A DNA stretch of 44,012 nucleotides from assembly GCA_001919865.1 (NCBI GenBank), contig MNIR01000075.1, forward strand, positions 1 through 44,012. Reading direction: 5' to 3'. Source of the DNA: Gemmatimonadetes bacterium 13_1_20CM_4_69_16. GTDB lineage: Bacteria; Gemmatimonadota; Gemmatimonadetes; Gemmatimonadales; GWC2-71-9. Under the pieces are notes generated by a model. It was not told where the DNA came from, ran no database searches, and saw nothing but the letters and a program-made list of their open reading frames with translations. Numbering within the stretch: position 1 is the first letter of the stretch; each line of letters starts with the position of its first letter. Made by a program: the position numbers and the translations under genes. Positions 874 to 11,018 of this stretch are shown here, piece after piece.

Positions 874-2796
874 CTACGGGCCGCCTTTCCTCGCTGTCAA
901 TCGGGCGAGCACCCGGGCATCCCCGGCGCGGCGGGTGATACCGTGGCGGTCCGCCCACTCGAGCAAGGGAATCAAGTACTTGCGGGTCAGGCCGAAGCGG
1001 TCGCGCAGCTCGGCGGGCGTCGCCTGCCCCAGCTCGGAAAGGGCGGATTCGAGGCTCGTGCGGAACGACTCCAGCGCCTGGCGCGGCGCGTAGCGGTCCT
1101 GGTCTATCTGCTCGGCTTCGCCCGCGCGGGCGAGATGCGCGAGCATGGCGCGGATCGGTGCGCCGGGAAATTCCCGCTCGAGCTCCGCCAGGGTCGGCAC
1201 CTCCCAGCGGGCATCCGCCAGGCGGCGGGTCAACCTCTCCCGCAAGTCGCTGGTGCGGGTGTCGAAGGCGGGTCGCCATCCCGCGAGCCGGGCCACGCTC
1301 CCGGCGATCTCGAGCTGCCGCTCCCGCGTGCCGAGGTCGAGCACCGCGTCCACGACCGCCGGCGGAGGTGCCGGCGCTCCCACCGCTGCTCGGAGGGCCT
1401 GCAGCGACATCCCTGGATCGAGCGGATGCTCCTCGTGGTAGCGCCGGAGAACCTCTGCGAGGCGCGTCGCCTCAGCCGCCACGGCTCCCCGCGCGACGAC
1501 TGCGTCGGCCAAGCTTACGAGGTCCTCGCGCGCCTCGGCGATGACGCCGGTCACACGCGCCGGGGGCAGACCGAGCCGTACGGGAAGGCTCGCCACCGCG
1601 AGCCCAGCGAGCCCGGCCTCGCGCGCCAGCTGGCGCAGCCGCTCTACCGGTGGCTGCTCCGCCGCGAGCCGCCGCTGGCGCAGCCGCGGCCGCTGCGCCG
1701 GGAAGGGGTCGAGCACGACGCCGCCGCCGATCGTCGTCACGGGCGAAAACGACCGCAGCACAAACCGGTCACCGCCGCGGGCGACGAGCGGTGTCTCGAG
1801 CATCAGGCGCGCGAGACCCTGTTCGCCCGGTGCGATAGATCGCACCTGGACCACGCGTGCCAGCACCTCGGCTGTGCCGAGGTGCACGCGGAGCCGGGTA
1901 CGGGAGGCGATCGCCTTGTGCGCGGTGGGGAGCAGCTCGACGGCCGCGTCCAGCATGGTCGTGGCGCGCCACCCCGCCCCGGTTACGGCCACGTGGCCGC
2001 GCGCCAACTCGCTCTTGTCCACTCCGACCAACGCCAGCGCCGTACGGCGGCCCGGCCCGGCGCGCTCCGCTGTCTGGCCGTGCACCTCGATCGAGCGCAC
2101 CCGCGCCTCACGCTCGAGCGGCAGCAGCCGCACAGAGTCTCCCACGGTGACGCTGCCGGTCCACGTCGACCCCGTGACGACCGTACCCGCGCCGGCCACG
2201 GCGAAGACACGATCGATCGGCAGCCGGAACAAGTCGTCCGCCGGCCGTTCGACGAGCTCTTCCGCGACCTGCCGCAGCGCCGATCGCAGCTGATCCAACC
2301 CCTCTCCCGTCACCGCGGAGGTGGGGACCGGTGGGGACCAGCGGACCCGGCTCCGCTCGAGCCGCTCGACGACCTCCGCCTGCACCAGGTCGAGCCACTC
2401 CGGCTCGGCTAGGTCCCGCTTGGTGATGACCGGGATGCCACGCCGCACCCCCAGCAGCTCGACGATCGCGAGGTGCTCCTCGGTCTGCGGCATGATCCCT
2501 TCGTCGGCCGCCACCACCAGCAGGGCGACGTCGATGCCAGTCGCGCCGGCGAGCATGTTGCGAACGAAGCCCTCATGGCCCGGGACGTCCACAACACTGG
2601 CCTGGAGCTGGTCGCCGAGCGGCAGCGGGGCAAACCCCAGATCGATCGTGATTCCGCGGCGCTTCTCCTCCTCCCACCGGTCGGTGTCGACACCGGTGAG
2701 GGCCTTCACGAGCGCCGTCTTACCGTGGTCGATGTGGCCGGCGGTGCCGACTACGAAGCGGCGGAGGGAGCCGGAGTGGAGGGCGTGGGGGTCCAG
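874..2796 (-). CDS. selB: selenocysteine-specific elongation factor SelB
   Basis: SelB is a GTPase that brings Sec-tRNA to the ribosome at UGA codons marked by a SECIS hairpin. The reverse strand shows the G1 loop [19 protein letters not shown], the G3 DVPGHEG, the G4 TKRDL, beta-barrel domains II and III and a long C-terminal part fitting winged-helix RNA-binding domains. The first ATG/GTG/TTG in frame is GTG at 2709, but it lies after the P-loop, so it cannot be the true start. I extended the gene to a CTG at 2794-2796, which has GGGAG eight bases upstream and gives about 640 residues, close to the normal length. It overlaps the end of recO. No selA, selD or tRNA-Sec is in the window. The family call is firm; the start is not. 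Confidence 0.85.
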
Positions 2797-3545
2797 GCGT
2801 GACGCTCCCAGAAGTCGAGGGCGGAGAGGGCACCGGTCTCGGCGAAGTGGTGACGGACGAACCGAGCGACGAGGCGGCGGTGGGCGGCGGCATGCGGCGC
2901 GTCGAGCCGTGGCAGGTCCGCTCGAGCGTCGTTCAGAGCGAGGAGGTCCCGGTAGGCCTGCCGCGGCAGCCGGGAGAGAGGTGGGCTCGGTGTGCAGTTC
3001 GAGCAGGCGACGCCCCCGTCGGCCACGCTGAACGCCACGGGGTCGGTGCCGTCAACGATGGCGGCGCCGTCCCGCACGCAGGTCGCGAGTGACGGCTCGA
3101 AGCCGAGCACCCCCAGCAACAGCCACATCCCCCGCACGCCGGCGGCATCGATCGCATCCGGCGGCGCGACGGCCAGCGCGTCCAGCGCCCCCGTCAGCGT
3201 GTCGTACGCCAGCGGGAGCGGGGCCGGTGGCGCCATCTTGAGCATCACCTCGGCGAGCGCCGTCGCCCCGGCGAACCGTCCCACGTCGGCCGCCAGATCG
3301 CGTCGCAAGTCGAGCACATCGAAGGCGCCGAGCGTGTGCAGCTCCCGCGTCTCCCGGAAGTACAGCTGCGCCATCCCTTCGCTCAACAGCTCCAGTCCCG
3401 CCCCGAACGGACTCTTGGGGCGAAGCACCCCCTTGGCCATGGCGCTCTGCACGCCCAGCTCGCGTGTCGCGAGCCGCACCACCTTGGAGGTTTCGCTGTA
3501 GCGGTAAGTCTGGAGGACGACCGCGGGGGTGGTGACGAGCGCCAT
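2751..3545 (-). CDS. recO: DNA repair protein RecO
   Basis: RecO works with RecF and RecR to load RecA on SSB-coated single-stranded DNA in gap repair. The 264-residue protein opens with the conserved N-terminal OB fold ([20 protein letters not shown]) and has a helical middle and a C-terminal part with ACSNC. Only one CxxC pair plus a single earlier Cys is visible, so the usual four-Cys zinc site may be reduced. The ATG at 3545 is chosen because the family match begins there; the frame stays open farther upstream without homology. It starts 28 bases after the propeller lipoprotein ends and overlaps selB, so it is probably on the same transcript as the B12 genes. Confidence 0.9.
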
Positions 3546-3573: not shown

Positions 3574-4614
3574 CTACGGCACGACCGCGAGCGCCGTTGC
3601 TGACGGGCAGACGCCGACAGCGACGGCCTGCAACTCGCCGTAGTCGGGCGGCGCGGAAAGCACGTGGACGACCCCCGCGCTGGTGCAGGCGCCGGCATCG
3701 AGCGCGTACAGCCGGGCCGCCTGATCGATCGCCAGCCCGCTCACGCCCCTCCCTCCCGGTTTCAGGCCTTGCCCCGGCCCACGGGTCAGTGAACGCGTCA
3801 GCGTGTTCACCTCGAGGATCCCGTCACTCGCGGAGGCGATCAGGACCCGCCCCGAGGGATGAAACGCCGCAGCCCCCGGAGACTCGCCCAGTCCGTTGAT
3901 CACCACGAGCTCCGCTCGGGCCACTGGATCCACGATCGACAGCTTGCCGTCGCCGCGCGTCGCGTGGCCGGCGTTCACCACATAGAGCAGGCTGTCGTCT
4001 CCTACGGCGAGGAAGCGTGCGTTCGTTCCCGAGAGCGGAATCGAGTCGGCCGGTGAGGCGCCGCAGCAGGCGAACGCGGTGAGCCAGCTCGGGCCGGCGG
4101 GGGTGCCATTCACGAGATTGCCGTTCGCGACGAACACGCGACCCTTCACGAACGCCACGGCTTGGGGGTACACGCCTACAGGAAAGTTGGTGGTAGCACC
4201 CGAGAAGAAATTGAGTCGTGTAACGGTGTTGAGCTTCGGGTTCGCCACCCAGGCGATCGAGTCGTCCTGAATCGCCACGCCGGTGGCGCCGGACCCCGTG
4301 GCGAGGGGGAAGACCACCACCGGGCGCACGCACAGGCCCGCGGAGCACAGGCCGGCGTTGTTGATCACGGCCACGGAGTCCGCGGGGCCGAGCGGCACGA
4401 CCACCGTTCTGCCGCGGCCGGCAGCCGTCGTCCCCCGCCCGGCCGGCGTTTGCAGATCCACGGTCCGGACCGACAGGTCTTTCGCCGACACGAACGACAC
4501 CGAGTTGTCGGCCGAGTTCACGATGGCGATCACCTGGCCGGCCGAGCTGGTCTGCTCCAGCGCGTCACTGCAGGCCGCGGCAAGGGCCAGTCCCAACAGA
4601 CAGAGTCGTCTCAT
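3574..4614 (-). CDS. beta-propeller (YncE/YVTN-like) surface lipoprotein in the B12 operon, BtuG-like candidate
   Basis: The 346-residue product has a lipoprotein signal with a lipobox LAAAC (lipidated Cys at residue 15). It is followed by repeated blade-like units, such as IAIVNSADNSVSFVSA, DSIAWVANPKLNTVTRLNF, GRVFVANG, LLYVVNAG and GRVLIASASDGILEV, typical of a YncE/NHL-type beta-propeller. It overlaps the DUF71 gene by four bases (ATGA) and lies three genes after btuD in a riboswitch-led B12 unit. In Bacteroides the lipoprotein BtuG is a seven-bladed propeller that binds B12 and passes it to BtuB. Position and fold together suggest an equivalent here; this is inference, and sequence alone cannot show B12 binding. 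Otherwise it is a propeller lipoprotein of unknown role. Confidence 0.75.
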   Translation of the reverse strand: MRRLCLLGLALAAACSDALEQTSSAGQVIAIVNSADNSVSFVSAKDLSVRTVDLQTPAGRGTTAAGRGRTVVVPLGPADSVAVINNAGLCSAGLCVRPVVVFPLATGSGATGVAIQDDSIAWVANPKLNTVTRLNFFSGATTNFPVGVYPQAVAFVKGRVFVANGNLVNGTPAGPSWLTAFACCGASPADSIPLSGTNARFLAVGDDSLLYVVNAGHATRGDGKLSIVDPVARAELVVINGLGESPGAAAFHPSGRVLIASASDGILEVNTLTRSLTRGPGQGLKPGGRGVSGLAIDQAARLYALDAGACTSAGVVHVLSAPPDYGELQAVAVGVCPSATALAVVP

Positions 4615-5294
4615 GACGTGGGGATCTCCTCGAGATCACAATACACAAACCGGTCCTCCCGCACCACGATCGCGCCGCGGCGATGGGGCACCGGCGCGTG
4701 CAGGATCGGCCCCGCGTACACGAACGTGTGGAACTCGCCGTTCTCGCCGCAGGGGTCGATCCCGGGTGGGAGGTCGCCCAGCAGCGCGGTGTCGAACTCC
4801 CGCCCCGCGAACGCCGCCGGGAGCGCACGCGAATCCACGCACGCAAGCACGGCCTTGTACCCTTGCCGCACGCAGTCGGCCGCCAGCTCCCGCGTGTCCC
4901 GGAGCCACAGGGGGAACAGCCCGCGCATCCCGATCCGCGCGAGCATGCGCTCCCGGTACGCCCGGATGTCCGCGAGAAACAGGTCGCCGAACACCACGGC
5001 GTCGAGGCCGGCGCAGCGCGCCCGGGCGGCGGTGAGCGTCGCCGCCATTTGCCGCTCGTACTCCTCGTTCGAGGCGTGGGGCGAGATCAGGACCTCGTCG
5101 AGCCGCAGGCCCAGCGCCCGGGCTTGCCGGTGCAGCAGAGTGCGGCGCACGCCGTGCATGCTGATCCGCTCGTATCCGGTCGTAACCGTGGTCACCAGCG
5201 CGACCACGCGATAGCGCTGGTCGCGCAACACTTCCTGCAGGGCCAGGGCGCTATCCTTCCCGCCGCTCCAGGCCATGAGCACCGGCTCGGCCAT
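4611..5294 (-). CDS. DUF71/COG2102 PP-loop ATPase (diphthine-ammonia ligase family), predicted B12-linked
   Basis: The 227-residue protein has the N-terminal PP-loop SGGKDSA at residues 10-16, the family stretch GDLFLADIRAYRERML, and a C-terminal ENGEFHTFVYAGPI. Eukaryotic and archaeal members (Dph6) amidate diphthine on elongation factor 2, a modification bacteria lack. Published comparative genomics of DUF71 predicted that a bacterial branch acts in B12 salvage, probably as an amide-forming ATP-dependent ligase. Here it lies 27 bases after btuB and overlaps the propeller lipoprotein gene by four bases, under a cobalamin riboswitch, which agrees with that prediction. The reaction is unknown. 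The start ATG at 5294 gives the full PP-loop domain. Confidence 0.85.
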   Translation of the reverse strand: MAEPVLMAWSGGKDSALALQEVLRDQRYRVVALVTTVTTGYERISMHGVRRTLLHRQARALGLRLDEVLISPHASNEEYERQMAATLTAARARCAGLDAVVFGDLFLADIRAYRERMLARIGMRGLFPLWLRDTRELAADCVRQGYKAVLACVDSRALPAAFAGREFDTALLGDLPPGIDPCGENGEFHTFVYAGPILHAPVPHRRGAIVVREDRFVYCDLEEIPTS

Positions 5295-5321: not shown

Positions 5322-7214
5322 TCACCAACCCCAGTCGAGGCGACCGCCCAGCAGGAGCGTGCGACCGCGGGCGGGGAAGTTTTTCACGTCTTCGTAGCGA
5401 GCGCCCAGCAGGTCCTCGAGACGCGCCGTGATCGCCAAGCCGGGTAGCGTGCCGCGAGCTCGACTCAGCTCGTAGGTGCTCGACGCGTCCACGCGGGTGT
5501 GAGGCGGCAGGGTAACCCGCCGTGCCGGAAAAGTCGAATAATCGTAGTCGTCGCGATCGCCCGTGTAGACGGCCACGAGGGATGCGGTTCCGCGCGCCCC
5601 CACGCCATAGCCGAGCCCCAGGCTGGCCGTGTGCGAGGGGCGGCGCTGCAGCCGCAGGTTGGTCGCAAAGTCGCGCGAGTCGAGGTACGTATAGCTGGCA
5701 TCGAACGCCAGCCCCCCCGCGAGGGCGCCCTGGACGCCGAGTTCCGCCCCTTGCGCCGCCGCGTCGGCGACGTTGCTGTAGTTGACCGAATCCGGGCCCA
5801 CCGGCGTGCCACTGTACTGGATCAAGTCCCGGAACCGCTGGTGGAAGTATGTAGCGCGGGCGGTCAGGGTTTTCCCCAGTCCTCTGTACTCGAGCCCTGT
5901 TTCCCAGTTGAGGGCGTGCTCGGGTCTCAGATTCGGATTCCCGCGCACGAAGCCGGTCGCAAAGTTCTCGTAGAAACTCGGCTCCTTGAAGCCCGTGCCG
6001 ACAGAACCGATCGCCCGCGTGCCTCCCGCGATCCGGAGAGACATGCCGATGCGATACGTCGCGTAGGTGCCGAAGCGTTGATTGTCCTCGAGCCGTGCGC
6101 CGACGGCGAGACCGACCAACCGCTCCAGCGGGGAGGCAACCTGTAGGTAGACGGCTCCGTTATTGCGCGAGCGCGGCATAGCGAGCGTGGTTCCGTTCAT
6201 CGCCTGCCGCTCGAGCGCGCCCCCCACGGTGATGACGTCGCGTGGCGCGAGCGTGAGGTTGAGCCGGGCGTCCAGCCCGCTGCGCGTGACCCAATCAGAG
6301 CTGCTATAGGGGAAAGTAGTGGTGTCGGCGGAGCTGTTCGGCCCGATGGCATACTGATTGTTGTCGCGACGCCAATCGGCCGTGAGGCGGCTCTCCACAC
6401 GGCCCGAGAAGCGGTGCCCCAGATCCAGCCCGATCGACGGACCACGGTCGAGCTGATGTTGGTTATTGCTCACCACGGTCCCGCCCCCATCCGTGGGGAA
6501 ATGGTACAGGGCGTCCCCATATCGGAGCGACAGCGCCGCGTCGGTACGCTCGTCTGGGCGGACGCGCACCCGTCCGCTCAAGACCTCGTTGCGGTATTGG
6601 TTGTTGATCGAGTAGACGCCGTCGCTGGAGAAGCGCGACATGCCAACCGAGTAGCCGGCGCGCCCGCCCCCTCCAGCGAAGGTCGCATCGACCGCGTTGC
6701 TGCCGTAGGTGCCGCCGCTGACGGCTACGCTCCCGTGTGCCGCGCCGCGACCGTCGCGGGTGAAGATCTGTACCACGCCCGTCATCGCGTCGGACCCGTA
6801 CAGCACGCTGGTCGGTCCTCGCACTACCTCGATTCGCTCCACGTTGTCGGTGGTCAGGTTGGCGAAGTCGTACGCCCCGCCAGGCGCGTTCTGCGGCACG
6901 CCATCGATCAAGACCTTCACGTAGTCGCTCTCCCCGCCGCGCAGAAACAGTGAGGTTTGGCTCCCGTAGGCGTTGGTCGTCACGACGCTCGCGCCGGGAA
7001 CGGTTCGCAATGCCTCGGCCACGGTGCGGATCCCTTGCTGCCGCAGCTGCACGCCGCTGATCACCGTCACCGCGACTGGTAAGTCCGCGGCGGGGGTCGG
7101 AATCCGGGTAGCGGTGACCACCACCGGGTTGAGCTTCACCGTGTCGGTCGGGGTCTGGCCGGCGAGTGACAGGGGGAAGACGAGGAGCCAGAACGCGCGC
7201 AGGGCCAGTCTCAT
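5322..7214 (-). CDS. btuB: TonB-dependent vitamin B12 receptor BtuB
   Basis: The 630-residue outer-membrane receptor has a signal peptide (cleavage near SLAGQ), a TonB box (NPVVVTATR), a plug domain with QQGIRTVAEALRTVPGASVV and IEVVRGPTSVLYGSDAMTGVVQIFT-type motifs, and a 22-strand-type barrel ending in an aromatic LDWGW. BtuB imports corrinoids with energy from TonB/ExbB/ExbD, which are not in this window. The sequence alone would fit several TonB-dependent receptors. The substrate call rests on its place in a btuFCD unit behind a cobalamin riboswitch and on its BtuB-like length. It overlaps btuD by four bases (ATGA). Confidence 0.9.
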   Translation of the reverse strand: MRLALRAFWLLVFPLSLAGQTPTDTVKLNPVVVTATRIPTPAADLPVAVTVISGVQLRQQGIRTVAEALRTVPGASVVTTNAYGSQTSLFLRGGESDYVKVLIDGVPQNAPGGAYDFANLTTDNVERIEVVRGPTSVLYGSDAMTGVVQIFTRDGRGAAHGSVAVSGGTYGSNAVDATFAGGGGRAGYSVGMSRFSSDGVYSINNQYRNEVLSGRVRVRPDERTDAALSLRYGDALYHFPTDGGGTVVSNNQHQLDRGPSIGLDLGHRFSGRVESRLTADWRRDNNQYAIGPNSSADTTTFPYSSSDWVTRSGLDARLNLTLAPRDVITVGGALERQAMNGTTLAMPRSRNNGAVYLQVASPLERLVGLAVGARLEDNQRFGTYATYRIGMSLRIAGGTRAIGSVGTGFKEPSFYENFATGFVRGNPNLRPEHALNWETGLEYRGLGKTLTARATYFHQRFRDLIQYSGTPVGPDSVNYSNVADAAAQGAELGVQGALAGGLAFDASYTYLDSRDFATNLRLQRRPSHTASLGLGYGVGARGTASLVAVYTGDRDDYDYSTFPARRVTLPPHTRVDASSTYELSRARGTLPGLAITARLEDLLGARYEDVKNFPARGRTLLLGGRLDWGW

Positions 7215-8014
7215 GGAGCATCCTTTCGCGGTCGTAAGGGGATCATCTGGGGCCGGCCCTCGAACGGGGCGATCGATACCGGCCAGGCGAACACACGCTC
7301 GGCGGTCTCGCGAGTGAGCACTTCACCGGGCGCGCCGGCCCCAGCGGACCGCCCCTCGGCCAGCAGGAGAACGCGATCGGCGAAACGCGCCGCCAGATTC
7401 ACGTGGTGCGTGATCATGAGGACGGCGAGCCCCTGGGCGTCCACCAGCGCGCGCACCAGCTCGAACAGCTCCATCTCGTGCCGCAGGTCGAGCGACGCGG
7501 TCGGCTCGTCGAGCACGAGAAGCCGGGGTTCCTGGGCGAGGGCCCGCGCCAGCCGAATCCGCTGGTACTCTCCGCCGGACAGCGTCCAGAGCCAGCGGTC
7601 GGCCAGGTCTCGGGCGTCGCACGCGACGAGTGCCCGCTCGACGGCCGCTCGGTCTGTCGCCCGCATCCCCCCCAGGAGCGAGAGGTGCGGGTATCGGCCG
7701 AGCAGCACCGTTTCTCGCACGCGCTGCGGGAACAGGTTGTCCTCGCGCTGCGGGAGGACCCCGACCACCCTCGCCAGCTCGCGGCGGGACCAGGCGCTCG
7801 CCGGGCGCCCCAGGATGTCCGCGTGGCCTTCGACCGGTCGGACGAGGCCGAGCGCCGTGCGCACCAGCGTCGTCTTGCCGCTGCCGTTGGGCCCGAGCAC
7901 GGCGTGGAACTCGCCCGCGCGCACCTCGAGCGAGACGCCCTGCAGAATGTCGCGCGGGGCGCCCGGGTAGCGGCACGTGACGCCGCTCAAGGCGAGGATC
8001 AGCTCACGGTCCAT
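7211..8014 (-). CDS. btuD: corrinoid ABC transporter ATP-binding protein BtuD
   Basis: The 267-residue ATPase has Walker A GPNGSGKTT, a Q-loop (GVLPQREDN), the signature LSGGEYQR, Walker B LLVLDEPTASLD and the switch His in MITHHVN. It powers inner-membrane import of B12 together with BtuC and BtuF. The start ATG at 8014 was chosen because the ABC domain begins at once (MDRELILALSGVTCRYPGAP); the open frame continues far upstream without homology. It overlaps the end of btuC by 16 bases and the start of btuB by four. A haem or siderophore ABC ATPase would look alike; the riboswitch decides for corrinoids. Confidence 0.9.
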   Translation of the reverse strand: MDRELILALSGVTCRYPGAPRDILQGVSLEVRAGEFHAVLGPNGSGKTTLVRTALGLVRPVEGHADILGRPASAWSRRELARVVGVLPQREDNLFPQRVRETVLLGRYPHLSLLGGMRATDRAAVERALVACDARDLADRWLWTLSGGEYQRIRLARALAQEPRLLVLDEPTASLDLRHEMELFELVRALVDAQGLAVLMITHHVNLAARFADRVLLLAEGRSAGAGAPGEVLTRETAERVFAWPVSIAPFEGRPQMIPLRPRKDAP

Positions 8015-8940
8015 CGGCGCAGCAAGAAGGCGAACACGGGGACGCCGAGCAGGGCAGTCACGATGCCCACCGGCAGCTCGCGCGGGGCCACCACGGTGCG
8101 AGCCAGCGTGTCGGCCGCCACGAGCAGAATCCCACCGGCGAGGAAGGCTGTTGGGAAGAGGGTGCGGTGGAGCCGGCCCCACACGAGGCGGCAGACGTGC
8201 GGCACGACGAGCCCGACGAACCCGATCACGCCCGCGACCGCGACTGCGGCGGCGGTCAAGAGCGACGCGGCGAGATAGACGAGCCGCTTGAGCCGTCGCA
8301 CGTCCGCGCCGAGGTATTGCGCGGGCTCCTCGCCGAGGGCCAGCAGGTCGAGGGGCCGGGCGGCCGCGGCGAGGACGGCGAGCGGCAGCGGCGCGTACAC
8401 GACCATCACGAGCACCGTGGTCCACGAGGCGCCGGAGAACCCGCCCCAGAGCCAGAGGAACGCGTTGCGCAGCTCGGTAGCTTGGGCGAGCGAGACGATC
8501 GCGGTGGTGATCGCCCCGGCGAACGCGCCCACAGCCACGCCCCCGAGCAGCAGGATCCGCGGGTCGAGCTCGGCGCCACCCATGAGCCCAAGGCGGTACA
8601 CCAACGCCATCGCGCCCACCGCCCCGACGAACGCCGCGAGTGGAAGGGCCCACGGGCCCGGGAGGTCGAAGGCGATCGCGACCACCGCCCCGAGCCCGGC
8701 CCCGCCCGAGAGGCCGAGCAGGAACGGGTCCGCCAGTGGGTTTCTCACGAGCGCCTGAAGGCCCACGCCCGACACGCCGAGTGCGCCGCCCACCAGAAAC
8801 GCGAGCACCGCGCGGGGAAGGCGGAGCTGCCAGACGATGGGCGAGGCAACCATATCGCGGAGCGGCACCTCCGCGGCCCCGAGCAGCACCGCGCCGGCGA
8901 GCGTCACGACCGCTACAGCCGCGAGCAGGACGTACTTCAT
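7999..8940 (-). CDS. btuC: corrinoid ABC transporter permease BtuC (FecCD family)
   Basis: This 313-residue FecCD-type permease has about ten hydrophobic segments and the family stretches LRLPRAVLAFLVGGALGVSG, GLQALVRNPLADPFLLGLSGG near the N-terminus and VIGFVGLVVPHVCRL plus the closing GVPVFAFLLRR. It forms the membrane channel of the BtuCD complex. ATG 8940 overlaps the btuF stop by four bases (ATGA), which supports the start. Confidence 0.92.
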   Translation of the reverse strand: MKYVLLAAVAVVTLAGAVLLGAAEVPLRDMVASPIVWQLRLPRAVLAFLVGGALGVSGVGLQALVRNPLADPFLLGLSGGAGLGAVVAIAFDLPGPWALPLAAFVGAVGAMALVYRLGLMGGAELDPRILLLGGVAVGAFAGAITTAIVSLAQATELRNAFLWLWGGFSGASWTTVLVMVVYAPLPLAVLAAAARPLDLLALGEEPAQYLGADVRRLKRLVYLAASLLTAAAVAVAGVIGFVGLVVPHVCRLVWGRLHRTLFPTAFLAGGILLVAADTLARTVVAPRELPVGIVTALLGVPVFAFLLRRWTVS

Positions 8941-9836
8941 GGCGTGGCGTCGAGGCGGTGGCGGAGCTCGCGCACCGCTTCTGCGACGCGCGGTCCGGGC
9001 CGCCCAAACAGCTGACCCGGAAGGAACAGGAACCGCCCCGCCCGCACCGCGCGGACCACCCGCCACTCGGGGCGCCCAGCGTAGCGCGGTGGCACGACGC
9101 TGTCCGAGAGGACGGCGACGAAATCCGGGTCGCGGGCGGCGATCGTCTCGATCGAAACCTGCGCCGAGGGCGCAGCGATGTCGTGAAACACGTTGCGGGC
9201 CCCTGCGAGCGAGGCGAGCCGGTCGAGGTAGCTCCCCGCCCCGATCACGATTGGTGGGTTGTCCCAGACGATGAAAACCAGGGACTGGGGGCCGGGGGTT
9301 AGGGGTTGGGGAGGGGCTGCGGCCAGGCTGTCCATGGCACGCGCCAACGAATCGGCCGACGCTACGCGACCTGTGAGCACGCCGAGGCGGCGGGCGGCCG
9401 GCCCAAGCTCCTCGAGCCGATTGAGATCGAGCAGCACCGTCTTGATGCCGAGGCGCTCCAACTGCTCGGCCGCCGTGACGTTCGGGCCGGATCGATATAG
9501 GACGGCGAGGTCGGGGTGTCGTGCCGCGACGGCTTCCACGTTGGGGGGCATGCCGTCGCCGACGCTCGGCACGCGGAGCGCCTCTGGCGGGTAGTCGCAC
9601 CATGCGGTCCGACCCACGAGGCGGTCGCCCGCGCCGATCGCGAACAGCAATTCGGTGAAGGACGGCAGGAGGGATACGACCCGCTGGGCCGGCGCGGCGA
9701 GCCCCACGCGCCGGCCGGCGTCGTCGGTGACGACGACCCCCTGGTGCGACGGCGACCGCTCCGCCTGCCGGCACGCGAGGAGCACGGCCGACAGGAGGAG
9801 GCCCGCGAGGTGGGTGCGATGTGCCCAGCGGCGCAT
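8937..9836 (-). CDS. btuF: corrinoid-binding lipoprotein BtuF
   Basis: The product is a class III (helical-linker) solute-binding protein of about 299 residues. It has a lipoprotein signal with lipobox LLAC, followed by RVVSLLPSFTELLFAIGAGDRLVG, which is the usual BtuF opening, and VPSVGDGMPPNVEAVAARHPDLAV. It catches corrinoid in the periplasm and docks on BtuC. I chose ATG at 9836; a GTG at 9851 in the same frame is possible. Between residues about 155 and 165 a Pro-rich linker is encoded by a strongly G/C-skewed low-complexity stretch (9281-9316), unusual within this family. The gene is the first after the cobalamin riboswitch. Confidence 0.9.
   Translation of the reverse strand: MRRWAHRTHLAGLLLSAVLLACRQAERSPSHQGVVVTDDAGRRVGLAAPAQRVVSLLPSFTELLFAIGAGDRLVGRTAWCDYPPEALRVPSVGDGMPPNVEAVAARHPDLAVLYRSGPNVTAAEQLERLGIKTVLLDLNRLEELGPAARRLGVLTGRVASADSLARAMDSLAAAPPQPLTPGPQSLVFIVWDNPPIVIGAGSYLDRLASLAGARNVFHDIAAPSAQVSIETIAARDPDFVAVLSDSVVPPRYAGRPEWRVVRAVRAGRFLFLPGQLFGRPGPRVAEAVRELRHRLDATP
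9284..9316 (+). repeat. G-run low-complexity tract inside btuF (potential G-quadruplex)
   Basis: The plus strand has five runs of four or five G separated by one to three bases. This meets the usual G-quadruplex pattern on the template strand of btuF. In the protein it gives only a Pro/Gly/Gln-rich linker. Confidence 0.6.
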
Positions 9837-9880
9837 AGCAACAGAGCCCACCCCCGACGGAAGCGGAGATGGGCTAGCGT

Positions 9881-9935
9881 CTGCGCCGGATGCGCAGCGC
9901 CACCATCCCTCCCGCGAGGGATCTACAGGTGGCGC
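9881..9935 (-). promoter_or_regulatory. expression platform of the cobalamin riboswitch
   Basis: On the minus strand the aptamer is followed by a long hairpin (9897-9935) with an outer stem GCGCCACC/GGTGGCGC and an inner stem ATCCCT/AGGGAT, then by a second hairpin (9881-9897, CTGCGC/GCGCAG). The first hairpin shares its outermost two bases (9934-9935) with the P1 strand of the aptamer, so P1 and the hairpin base compete. No U run follows, which argues for translational or Rho-linked control more than classical intrinsic termination. Confidence 0.55.
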
Positions 9936-10077
9936 GAACGGAGACGTCTCCTGGCTTCGGGCGGTCGGCTCGCCTTCCCGGGTGAAGACACCCAGTGGCG
10001 TAGAGCCGTTACCACTTGCCCGTTACAGTGGCGGGGCCGCGCCGGACTCGCACCGGCTTCCGTGATTCCCCGTTCGC
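9934..10077 (-). promoter_or_regulatory. cobalamin (AdoCbl-type) riboswitch aptamer
   Basis: The minus strand carries the conserved cobalamin-riboswitch core: GGTGCGAGTCCGGCGCGG, then CCCGCCACTGTAACGG (10018-10037 region), and the B12-box-like GAAGCCAGGAGACG at 9944-9958. The ends form a perfect 8-base P1 helix, GCGAACGG at 10070-10077 with CCGTTCGC at 9934-9941 (minus-strand reading). It lies just before btuF and so should repress the B12 uptake operon when corrinoid is plentiful. The class is clear; the exact ligand preference (AdoCbl or MeCbl) is not. Confidence 0.93.
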
Positions 10078-10094
10078 TTTGTACGACGAGCGCT

Positions 10095-10123
10095 AGTCTA
10101 TGCGAGGAACCTTCGGAGCGCAA
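10095..10123 (-). promoter_or_regulatory. possible promoter of the B12 operon
   Basis: A weak sigma-70-like pair, TTGCGC and TAGACT spaced 17 bases, would start transcription near 10088, a few bases before P1 of the riboswitch. The match is modest and rests mainly on position. Confidence 0.3.
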
Positions 10124-10127
10124 GACA

Positions 10128-11018
10128 TCAGACGTCAGACGTCTTCTTCCGCAGCGCCACCACGAAACCCACGGCGAGCGCCGCCGCCGCTGCGACCACC
10201 ACGAATGGCACCAGTGACTCGGCCTGGAACGCGTGACCGACCGCAAAAGCGATGGTGACCGCTGCCCCGGCCGGCACGACACGGATGCGGTAGCGGGCGA
10301 AGCGCCGACGCTCGAGCTCCTGCACGCCCAGTGTGTCGAGCGCTGGGGCCGTCACGGTCGCCGTCGTGTCTTCGACCAGCAGATCCACCTCCGCGATCGG
10401 CTGATCGATGGGAATCGCAAGCCGCGCGACGCTCCCGGGAAGGACGTACGCGTAGCTCAATTGCTTCGCCTCGCCCGGCGGAATCGGCCCGAACACCGCC
10501 ACGCGGGTGCCCTGCAGCGCGACCGCTTGCGGCGAGAGGTCGCCCTGGGCGACTTGGAACTGGACCGCCTCGGACGGGATGGCGCCGGCCCACGTGGGTT
10601 GGAGCGTGTCCGCTGCGATGCGCGTCTTGGTGCCGGGATTCACCAGCTCGACCAGCTCGAGCACGTCCCGCGCCCCATCCGGCTTCCGGCGCGCCACCGT
10701 GAGGAGGCGCCGGGCCACCTGCACGCCCGGTCCCGCCGAGGTCGTGTCGTACACCAGCAGCGGCCGCAGCTCGGTGCGCTGCCGGAAGGCCCTCACCGGC
10801 TCGGAGAAATACGCGATGCCGTCGTACCAGCTGGACACGACGTAGATCGCGGCGGTGTCGGGGCGGCCCATCGACAGGGTGAAGGCGCCGCGTGCATCAG
10901 TGCGAGTCGAGTCGACGGGCCCGCCGGCCCCGCCCAGCGTCACTCGATGCAGCACCACCCAGGCGTGGGCCAGCGGAGTGCCGTGTGGCCCACCGTGGAG
11001 GACCCGGCCCGAAGCCAC
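10128..11018 (-). CDS. exported, C-terminally membrane-anchored protein with carboxypeptidase-regulatory-like domain
   Basis: The 296-residue product opens with a beta-sandwich-like stretch (ASGRVLHGG..PLAHAWVVLHRV..DARGAFTLS) typical of carboxypeptidase regulatory-like domains, has further beta-rich sequence, and ends with one membrane segment (LVPFVVVAAAAALAVGFVVAL) and a basic RKKTSDV tail. The annotated GTG at 11018 leaves no export signal. The frame remains open upstream and there encodes LRSTLALACLLAGG, a good signal peptide, but without any ATG, GTG or TTG; a CTG at 11106 is the only near-standard choice. It is the last gene of the long gene train and ends 28 bases from the suggested B12 operon promoter. 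Function unknown. Confidence 0.65.
   Translation of the reverse strand: MASGRVLHGGPHGTPLAHAWVVLHRVTLGGAGGPVDSTRTDARGAFTLSMGRPDTAAIYVVSSWYDGIAYFSEPVRAFRQRTELRPLLVYDTTSAGPGVQVARRLLTVARRKPDGARDVLELVELVNPGTKTRIAADTLQPTWAGAIPSEAVQFQVAQGDLSPQAVALQGTRVAVFGPIPPGEAKQLSYAYVLPGSVARLAIPIDQPIAEVDLLVEDTTATVTAPALDTLGVQELERRRFARYRIRVVPAGAAVTIAFAVGHAFQAESLVPFVVVAAAAALAVGFVVALRKKTSDV

Follow-up and report, generated by a model that had tools for sequence, protein, structure and literature searches.

In Bacteroides, the TonB-dependent receptor BtuB is capped by the propeller lipoprotein BtuG. This lid has a very high affinity for corrinoids, and its closing releases the bound corrinoids to the receptor (PMC10404256). 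So far, BtuG has been regarded as confined to Bacteroidetes (PMC6143338), and other organisms with BtuB have been said to lack it (PMC12751083). In the open-access literature we found no paper naming a BtuG in Gemmatimonadota. The clustering of DUF71 genes with btuCDF has already been published (PMC3541065). In this study, we analysed a window of 44,012 nucleotides from Gemmatimonadetes bacterium 13_1_20CM_4_69_16 (contig MNIR01000075.1), in which a propeller lipoprotein gene lies within a riboswitch-headed set of B12-uptake genes, and we followed this gene across the phylum.

Results

A propeller lipoprotein gene in a B12-uptake operon

The operon of the window lies on the minus strand throughout, in the order cobalamin riboswitch-btuF-btuC-btuD-btuB-DUF71-propeller-recO. 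The riboswitch aptamer at its head (9926..10128) scores 84.9 bits with RF00174 (gathering score 31.5). The first gene encodes a btuF-like periplasmic binding protein (8937..9851; PF01497, 98.9 bits), which has a lipobox-like start and whose best NCBIfam equivalog match is PRK03379 BtuF, below the cut-off. The btuC-like ABC permease (7999..8940) and the btuD-like ABC ATPase (7211..8014) were assigned from their reading frames and sequences, and both are neighbours kept in related loci; the former overlaps btuF by 4 bases and the latter overlaps the start of btuB, likewise by 4. The btuB-like TonB-dependent receptor (5322..7214) carries the Pfam domains Plug and TonB_dep_Rec_b-barrel, and its top NCBIfam match is TIGR01779 TonB-B12, at 280 bits below the cut-off of 599.7. 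Next come a DUF71/PF01902 PP-loop ATPase, putatively of the DUF71-B12 salvage subgroup (4611..5294; PF01902, 105.7 bits), the propeller gene (3574..4614) and, 28 bases 3' of the latter, recO (2751..3545; Pfam RecO_N/RecO_C, with matches to PF11967 and PF02565). By synteny, recO is the constant right-hand neighbour in the family of the window, and it is not itself a B12 gene; a reading frame for a selB-like GTPase, assigned from sequence only, also lies downstream of the propeller. Genes overlap at btuF/btuC, btuC/btuD, btuD/btuB and DUF71/propeller, the last through an ATGA in which the propeller start overlaps the DUF71 stop (4611-4614, TCAT on the plus strand). Because of these overlaps, and of gaps of only 27 bases between btuB and DUF71 and 28 before recO, the propeller gene is part of a tight operon.

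Two further minus-strand genes of the window caught our attention. One (10128-11018), whose product shows a carboxypeptidase-regulatory-like domain weakly, stops at the point where the riboswitch starts, a position that most loci of the window's own family preserve. The other (339-788) encodes a secreted protein of 149 aa with an NYPNPFNP motif, by eye a T9SS/FlgD-like C-terminal domain, and with a GVGVGV repeat within its signal peptide.

The propeller reading frame (4614-3574, minus strand, ATG start) encodes 346 aa. Its lipoprotein signal, MRRLCLLGLALAAA/C15, ends in a lipobox leading to Cys15 (LAAA/C-SDALEQ; 4570..4614, minus strand), and of 64 family members aligned, 62 have the lipobox cysteine. 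Since Pfam gives no match to the window protein, its assignment as a propeller rests on a structural model and on profile and fold searches. An AlphaFold2 model, computed from the window protein aligned with 10 homologues, reached a mean pLDDT of 85.9 and a pTM of 0.85, and poor confidence was confined to the signal peptide and one short loop. Read strand by strand, the predicted structure comprises seven four-stranded blades, and the C-terminus (337-344) supplies the innermost strand of blade 1, closing the ring. Related genera retain an intact homologue with 54-81% identity, which, together with the seven-bladed model, argues against a chance reading frame. Two cysteines, Cys310 and Cys336 (span 3607..3687, minus strand), are conserved in 88% and 86% of the family; in the model they sit on loops of blade 7 and of the blade 7-1 junction, and they could form a disulfide across blades 7 and 1.

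An earlier note on this DNA had proposed a lipoprotein with propeller repeats at 3574-4614, translationally coupled to the genes before it in a riboswitch-headed B12 operon, after btuB and a DUF71 gene. The Cys15 lipobox and the seven blades counted in the model of the protein alone bear out the first part, and the coordinates and gene order of the second were right.

Relationship to BtuG and to other propellers

We compared the AlphaFold2 model with 350,542 PDB chains in Foldseek. The first rank was taken by 8ptf, a BtuG structure with cyanocobalamin, and BtuG made up 13 of the 16 top chains. TM-scores (query length) were 0.70-0.75 for BtuG as against about 0.55-0.69 for generic propellers; with so modest a margin, the ranking obtained for the predicted structure is a lead for function and no proof of it.

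At the sequence level a family profile was needed, because a single-sequence PDB search with the window protein gave just weak generic propellers. A profile of 50 members of the propeller family (A2) matched the generic YVTN protein 1L0Q first and BtuG1 next (E 4e-12); BtuG2 and BtuG3 had E values between about 5e-4 and 8e-4. We built a second profile (A4) from three Bacteroidota BtuG, whose loci were found with a BtuG1 fragment in a plasmid search; Gemmatimonadota family members gave no match in the plasmid search. Aligned by hhalign, A2 and A4 share 264 columns in blade register at 16% identity (probability 96.3, E 1.6e-9). A2 gives ordinary Gemmatimonadota propellers higher scores (65-116 bits) than BtuG (22-42 bits).

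The BtuG1 fragment scores 33.6 bits against PF16819 DUF5074 (cut-off 27.2), whereas the window protein gives no match and no Gemmatimonadota member rises above the cut-off (best 20.4 bits). DUF5074 was also rejected as a family label because the PF16819 matches of these genomes lie elsewhere than the riboswitch-linked propellers. On present evidence, the Gemmatimonadota propeller is BtuG-like, yet no member of BtuG by the curated family criterion that can be tested. Among 50 family members, PF21783 YNCE matched a single one (E 0.019) and fell short of the cut-off. We also discarded a link to PQQ through TIGR03866, for which the score was 20 bits (cut-off 287); for the receptor of the window, PqqU gave 75 bits as compared with 280 for TonB-B12.

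In an unrooted maximum-likelihood tree of three groups, the riboswitch-linked propellers and the diverged propellers of family f7 form one clade (100/99), apart from the generic paralogues and from BtuG. Because there are three groups and no root, the tree designates neither BtuG nor the generic paralogues as the sister of this clade. We entertain, tentatively and with more doubt than belief, that propeller-lid B12 capture in Gemmatimonadota evolved independently of BtuG, by recruitment of a YVTN propeller that became paired with BtuB and SusC-like receptors. If so, lipoprotein-capped B12 uptake would have arisen more than once.

We also looked in the propeller for features of the BtuG binding mode. 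The b-c loop of blade 1 has 4 residues in the window protein (34-37) against 11 in the BtuG chain 8puj, and the long b-c loops of the window propeller are found in blades 4 and 5. A search for a clustered conserved face on the propeller revealed no significant bias (permutation p 0.16), and a search for a negatively charged face, by loop counts rather than an electrostatic map, found the charges of the b-c/d-a loops balanced, with 5 acidic and 5 basic residues.

Distribution and linkage to the cobalamin riboswitch

Family membership was defined by an A2 match of E 1e-50 or better; generic matches stood at 1e-29 and weaker, with a gap between. By this definition, the family is present in 80 of the 298 Gemmatimonadota genomes sampled. 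A same-strand RF00174 riboswitch lies 2.2-6.8 kb upstream of the propeller in 60 of the 80 members, or in 60 of the 65 whose loci are not cut by a contig end (15 are), and the other five (G008, G037, G107, G158 and G184) adjoin btuF/C/D genes. With genomes of 3.7 Mb carrying about 1.3 riboswitches each, we estimate that about 0.1 such linkages in 80 would arise by chance. These data bear on the idea that a generic YVTN/YncE propeller happens to sit in the operon and plays no part in B12 uptake. Other YVTN propellers of similar sequence do occur in the phylum, but the riboswitch-linked proteins form a single clade separate from those paralogues, and linkage at nearly all assessable loci, persisting through several reshuffled layouts, disfavours a chance association so strongly that we give it hardly any credence.

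The earlier note had suggested checking whether homologues accompany btuB across Gemmatimonadota, and they do co-occur there with btuB-type receptors and cobalamin riboswitches. Its reading of the protein as a B12-capture component was largely right, on the grounds of fold and phylum-wide linkage, and can be broadened to that of a phylum-wide, optional partner in B12 uptake. The label 'YncE type' applies only loosely; the closest solved fold is BtuG, and E. coli YncE was not seen among the best matches.

Most Gemmatimonadota sampled do without the propeller and carry btuFCDB alone. We examined nine loci that lack the propeller: in seven the same btuFCD-btuB-recO operon is present, recO following btuB directly, and of the remaining two, L131 contains a different insertion and L134 is cut off by a contig border. 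The diverged f7 propellers (L144-L146) are found in riboswitch-btuFCD-receptor-propeller-recO-selB operons. Elsewhere we saw the orders FCD-B-(DUF71)-propeller, B-propeller alone, FCD-propeller with btuB(-DUF71) at a second riboswitch, and B-propeller-FCD. These layouts, together with the propeller-free operons, mark the propeller as an optional and separable addition to B12 uptake.

Two departures from the family pattern were noted along the way. In genome G111 (L059:4206-5201), the propeller is 44% identical to that of the window, as compared with 62-92% for the neighbouring genes, which points to either faster evolution or replacement of the propeller. In two metagenome-assembled genomes (L040, about 4000-5060; L041, 4204-5196), apparent frameshifts, due to assembly error or decay, break the propeller frames.

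Receptors and operon layouts

Of the 44 loci scanned, 40 have a gene with a Plug domain upstream of the propeller, and in 31 of the 44 this receptor bears a SusC-like N-terminal CarboxypepD_reg domain. In all seven upstream receptors examined, TonB-B12 TIGR01779 was the best or second-best NCBIfam match, below the cut-off. The commoner arrangement places the propeller next to a receptor. Within family f1, several genera have the propeller directly after btuFCD, with btuB or a receptor related to it, often accompanied by DUF71, at a second riboswitch.

This last arrangement favours what we rank as the main rival to a BtuG-like role, a propeller that faces the periplasm, where it would take corrinoid from BtuB or store it and pass it to BtuF. 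Lipoproteins can face the periplasm, and we know of no surface-export machinery in Gemmatimonadota. However, the step is already performed by BtuF, which in these loci is often a lipoprotein as well (36 of 44), and the propeller more commonly adjoins the receptor. Moreover, the segment after the lipobox cysteine of the propeller is acidic and contains almost no basic residues, a trait shared with the three Bacteroidota BtuG but not with BtuF; against other lipoproteins the difference in this segment is not significant (11 vs 11, p 0.31, a small baseline). We therefore consider a periplasm-facing carrier unlikely.

The variety of partners also bears on whether a B12-regulated propeller could serve another purpose, either binding a different ligand or playing a structural part, for instance in receptor assembly or stability. 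Such a role would accord with the fact that no B12-contact residue of BtuG can be mapped onto the propeller, and with the many ligands or proteins that propellers of the same fold bind. Yet the partners change between two receptor types, or are reduced to btuFCD alone, and the B12 riboswitch is the constant, which makes this explanation rather improbable.

Several loci showed additional features. In genus g63 (G250 and G272), two tandem propellers stand behind one SusC-like receptor (L097:2060-4797; L099:8256-10489, minus strand), which suggests a duplication. Family members of 457-460 aa occur at L105:7829-9208, L106, L109, L111 and L113, and that of L105 has a PKD/Big_7-like domain between lipobox and propeller (PKD E 1.8e-4, just under the cut-off). 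In families f5 and f7 (L105, L106, L107, L109, L111-L113), the receptor-propeller pair and the btuF/btuC/btuD genes lie on opposite strands and diverge, and a second, oppositely facing cobalamin riboswitch is present in most of these genomes.

Discussion

Taken together, fold, membrane anchor, operon and regulation make a role like that of BtuG the best reading of the propeller. We put at about 0.62 the probability that it is an outer-membrane lipoprotein working as BtuG does, that is, as a surface lid over the TonB receptor that catches corrinoids and passes them on. According to this model, scarce B12 would cause the riboswitch to switch the operon on. The propeller would then sit at the surface atop the TonB receptor (BtuB, or a SusC-like receptor in other genera), where one of its faces would catch corrinoids and hand them down, and BtuF and BtuCD would bring them into the cell. 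The model thus presumes that the protein binds corrinoids, is exposed at the surface and forms a lid-like complex with BtuB. In favour of the BtuG-like role we count the riboswitch linkage, which survives the reshuffling of layouts, the receptor genes found upstream, the gene order shared with Bacteroidota btuG loci, the fold and profile matches to BtuG, and the need for B12. Against it stand the DUF5074 miss, the higher scores of generic propellers, the short blade-1 loop, the missing face signal and the fact that most sampled Gemmatimonadota manage without a propeller.

The need for B12 is apparent from gene content. CbiC, a marker of de novo corrin synthesis, was absent from all 12 genomes tested, the window genome included, and proteins with a B12-binding domain were present in all 12. 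The window genome (G000) is 85% complete, so its lack of CbiC would by itself be weak evidence, and the pattern among its relatives supports it. Because cultured Gemmatimonadota need B12 (PMC10581226), the question of a lid touches on how members of this phylum compete for the vitamin.

Propeller-lid B12 capture may be more widespread than thought. The origin of BtuG had been tied to gut competition; a BtuG-like part in several Gemmatimonadota families, from soils, waters and sediments, would separate this invention from the gut. The loading of a TonB receptor by a lid lipoprotein could then be studied in a second phylum as well. In this respect the phylum is a natural experiment, with the same operon lacking the lid in some members and the lid combined with a SusC-like receptor in others.

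Among known systems, the E. coli BtuBFCD machinery has the same transport core as the Gemmatimonadota operon and is not known to include a propeller lipoprotein (PMC10404256). The PF01902 gene of the window is clustered with btuFCD, as published for the DUF71-B12 subgroup (PMC3541065); this likeness concerns a neighbour in the operon and not the propeller, and elsewhere the gene accompanies btuB at a second riboswitch. The YVTN surface-layer propeller 1L0Q, top match by sequence profile and second by fold, shares YVTN-type repeats with the family, but it is an archaeal surface-layer repeat protein without a known link to B12.

The comparison with BtuG1, BtuG2 and BtuG3 of Bacteroides thetaiotaomicron (PDB 8BLW, 8BMX, 8OKV, 8PTF and 3DSM; PMC6143338, PMC10404256) is the closest and cuts both ways. 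Identity is about 11-16%, and in BtuG2 an 11-residue b-c loop of blade 1 (Asn54-Thr64) clamps B12, whereas the Gemmatimonadota propeller has a short turn there. Unlike BtuG, the latter falls below the DUF5074 cut-off, carries a conserved cysteine pair, belongs to another phylum and is often paired with a SusC-like receptor; B12 binding is known for BtuG, and for the Gemmatimonadota propeller we infer corrinoid binding. On the other hand, both are lipoproteins with a seven-bladed propeller (predicted in our case), an aligned blade register and a C-terminal closing strand, and the gene of each adjoins that of a TonB receptor at a locus with a cobalamin riboswitch. The acidic segments after the lipobox cysteine in the three Bacteroidota BtuG (CSDDDDD, CSDDSNG and CDDMED) resemble those of the Gemmatimonadota propellers. 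The likeness extends to gene order: one Gemmatimonadota locus (L082, family f9) reads riboswitch-receptor-propeller-btuF-btuC-btuD, the Bacteroides finegoldii btuG locus reads riboswitch-receptor-BtuG, that of Prevotella follows the order of L082 as far as it was read, and the Phocaeicola control locus, riboswitch-receptor-BtuG-FCD, has the same order as L082.
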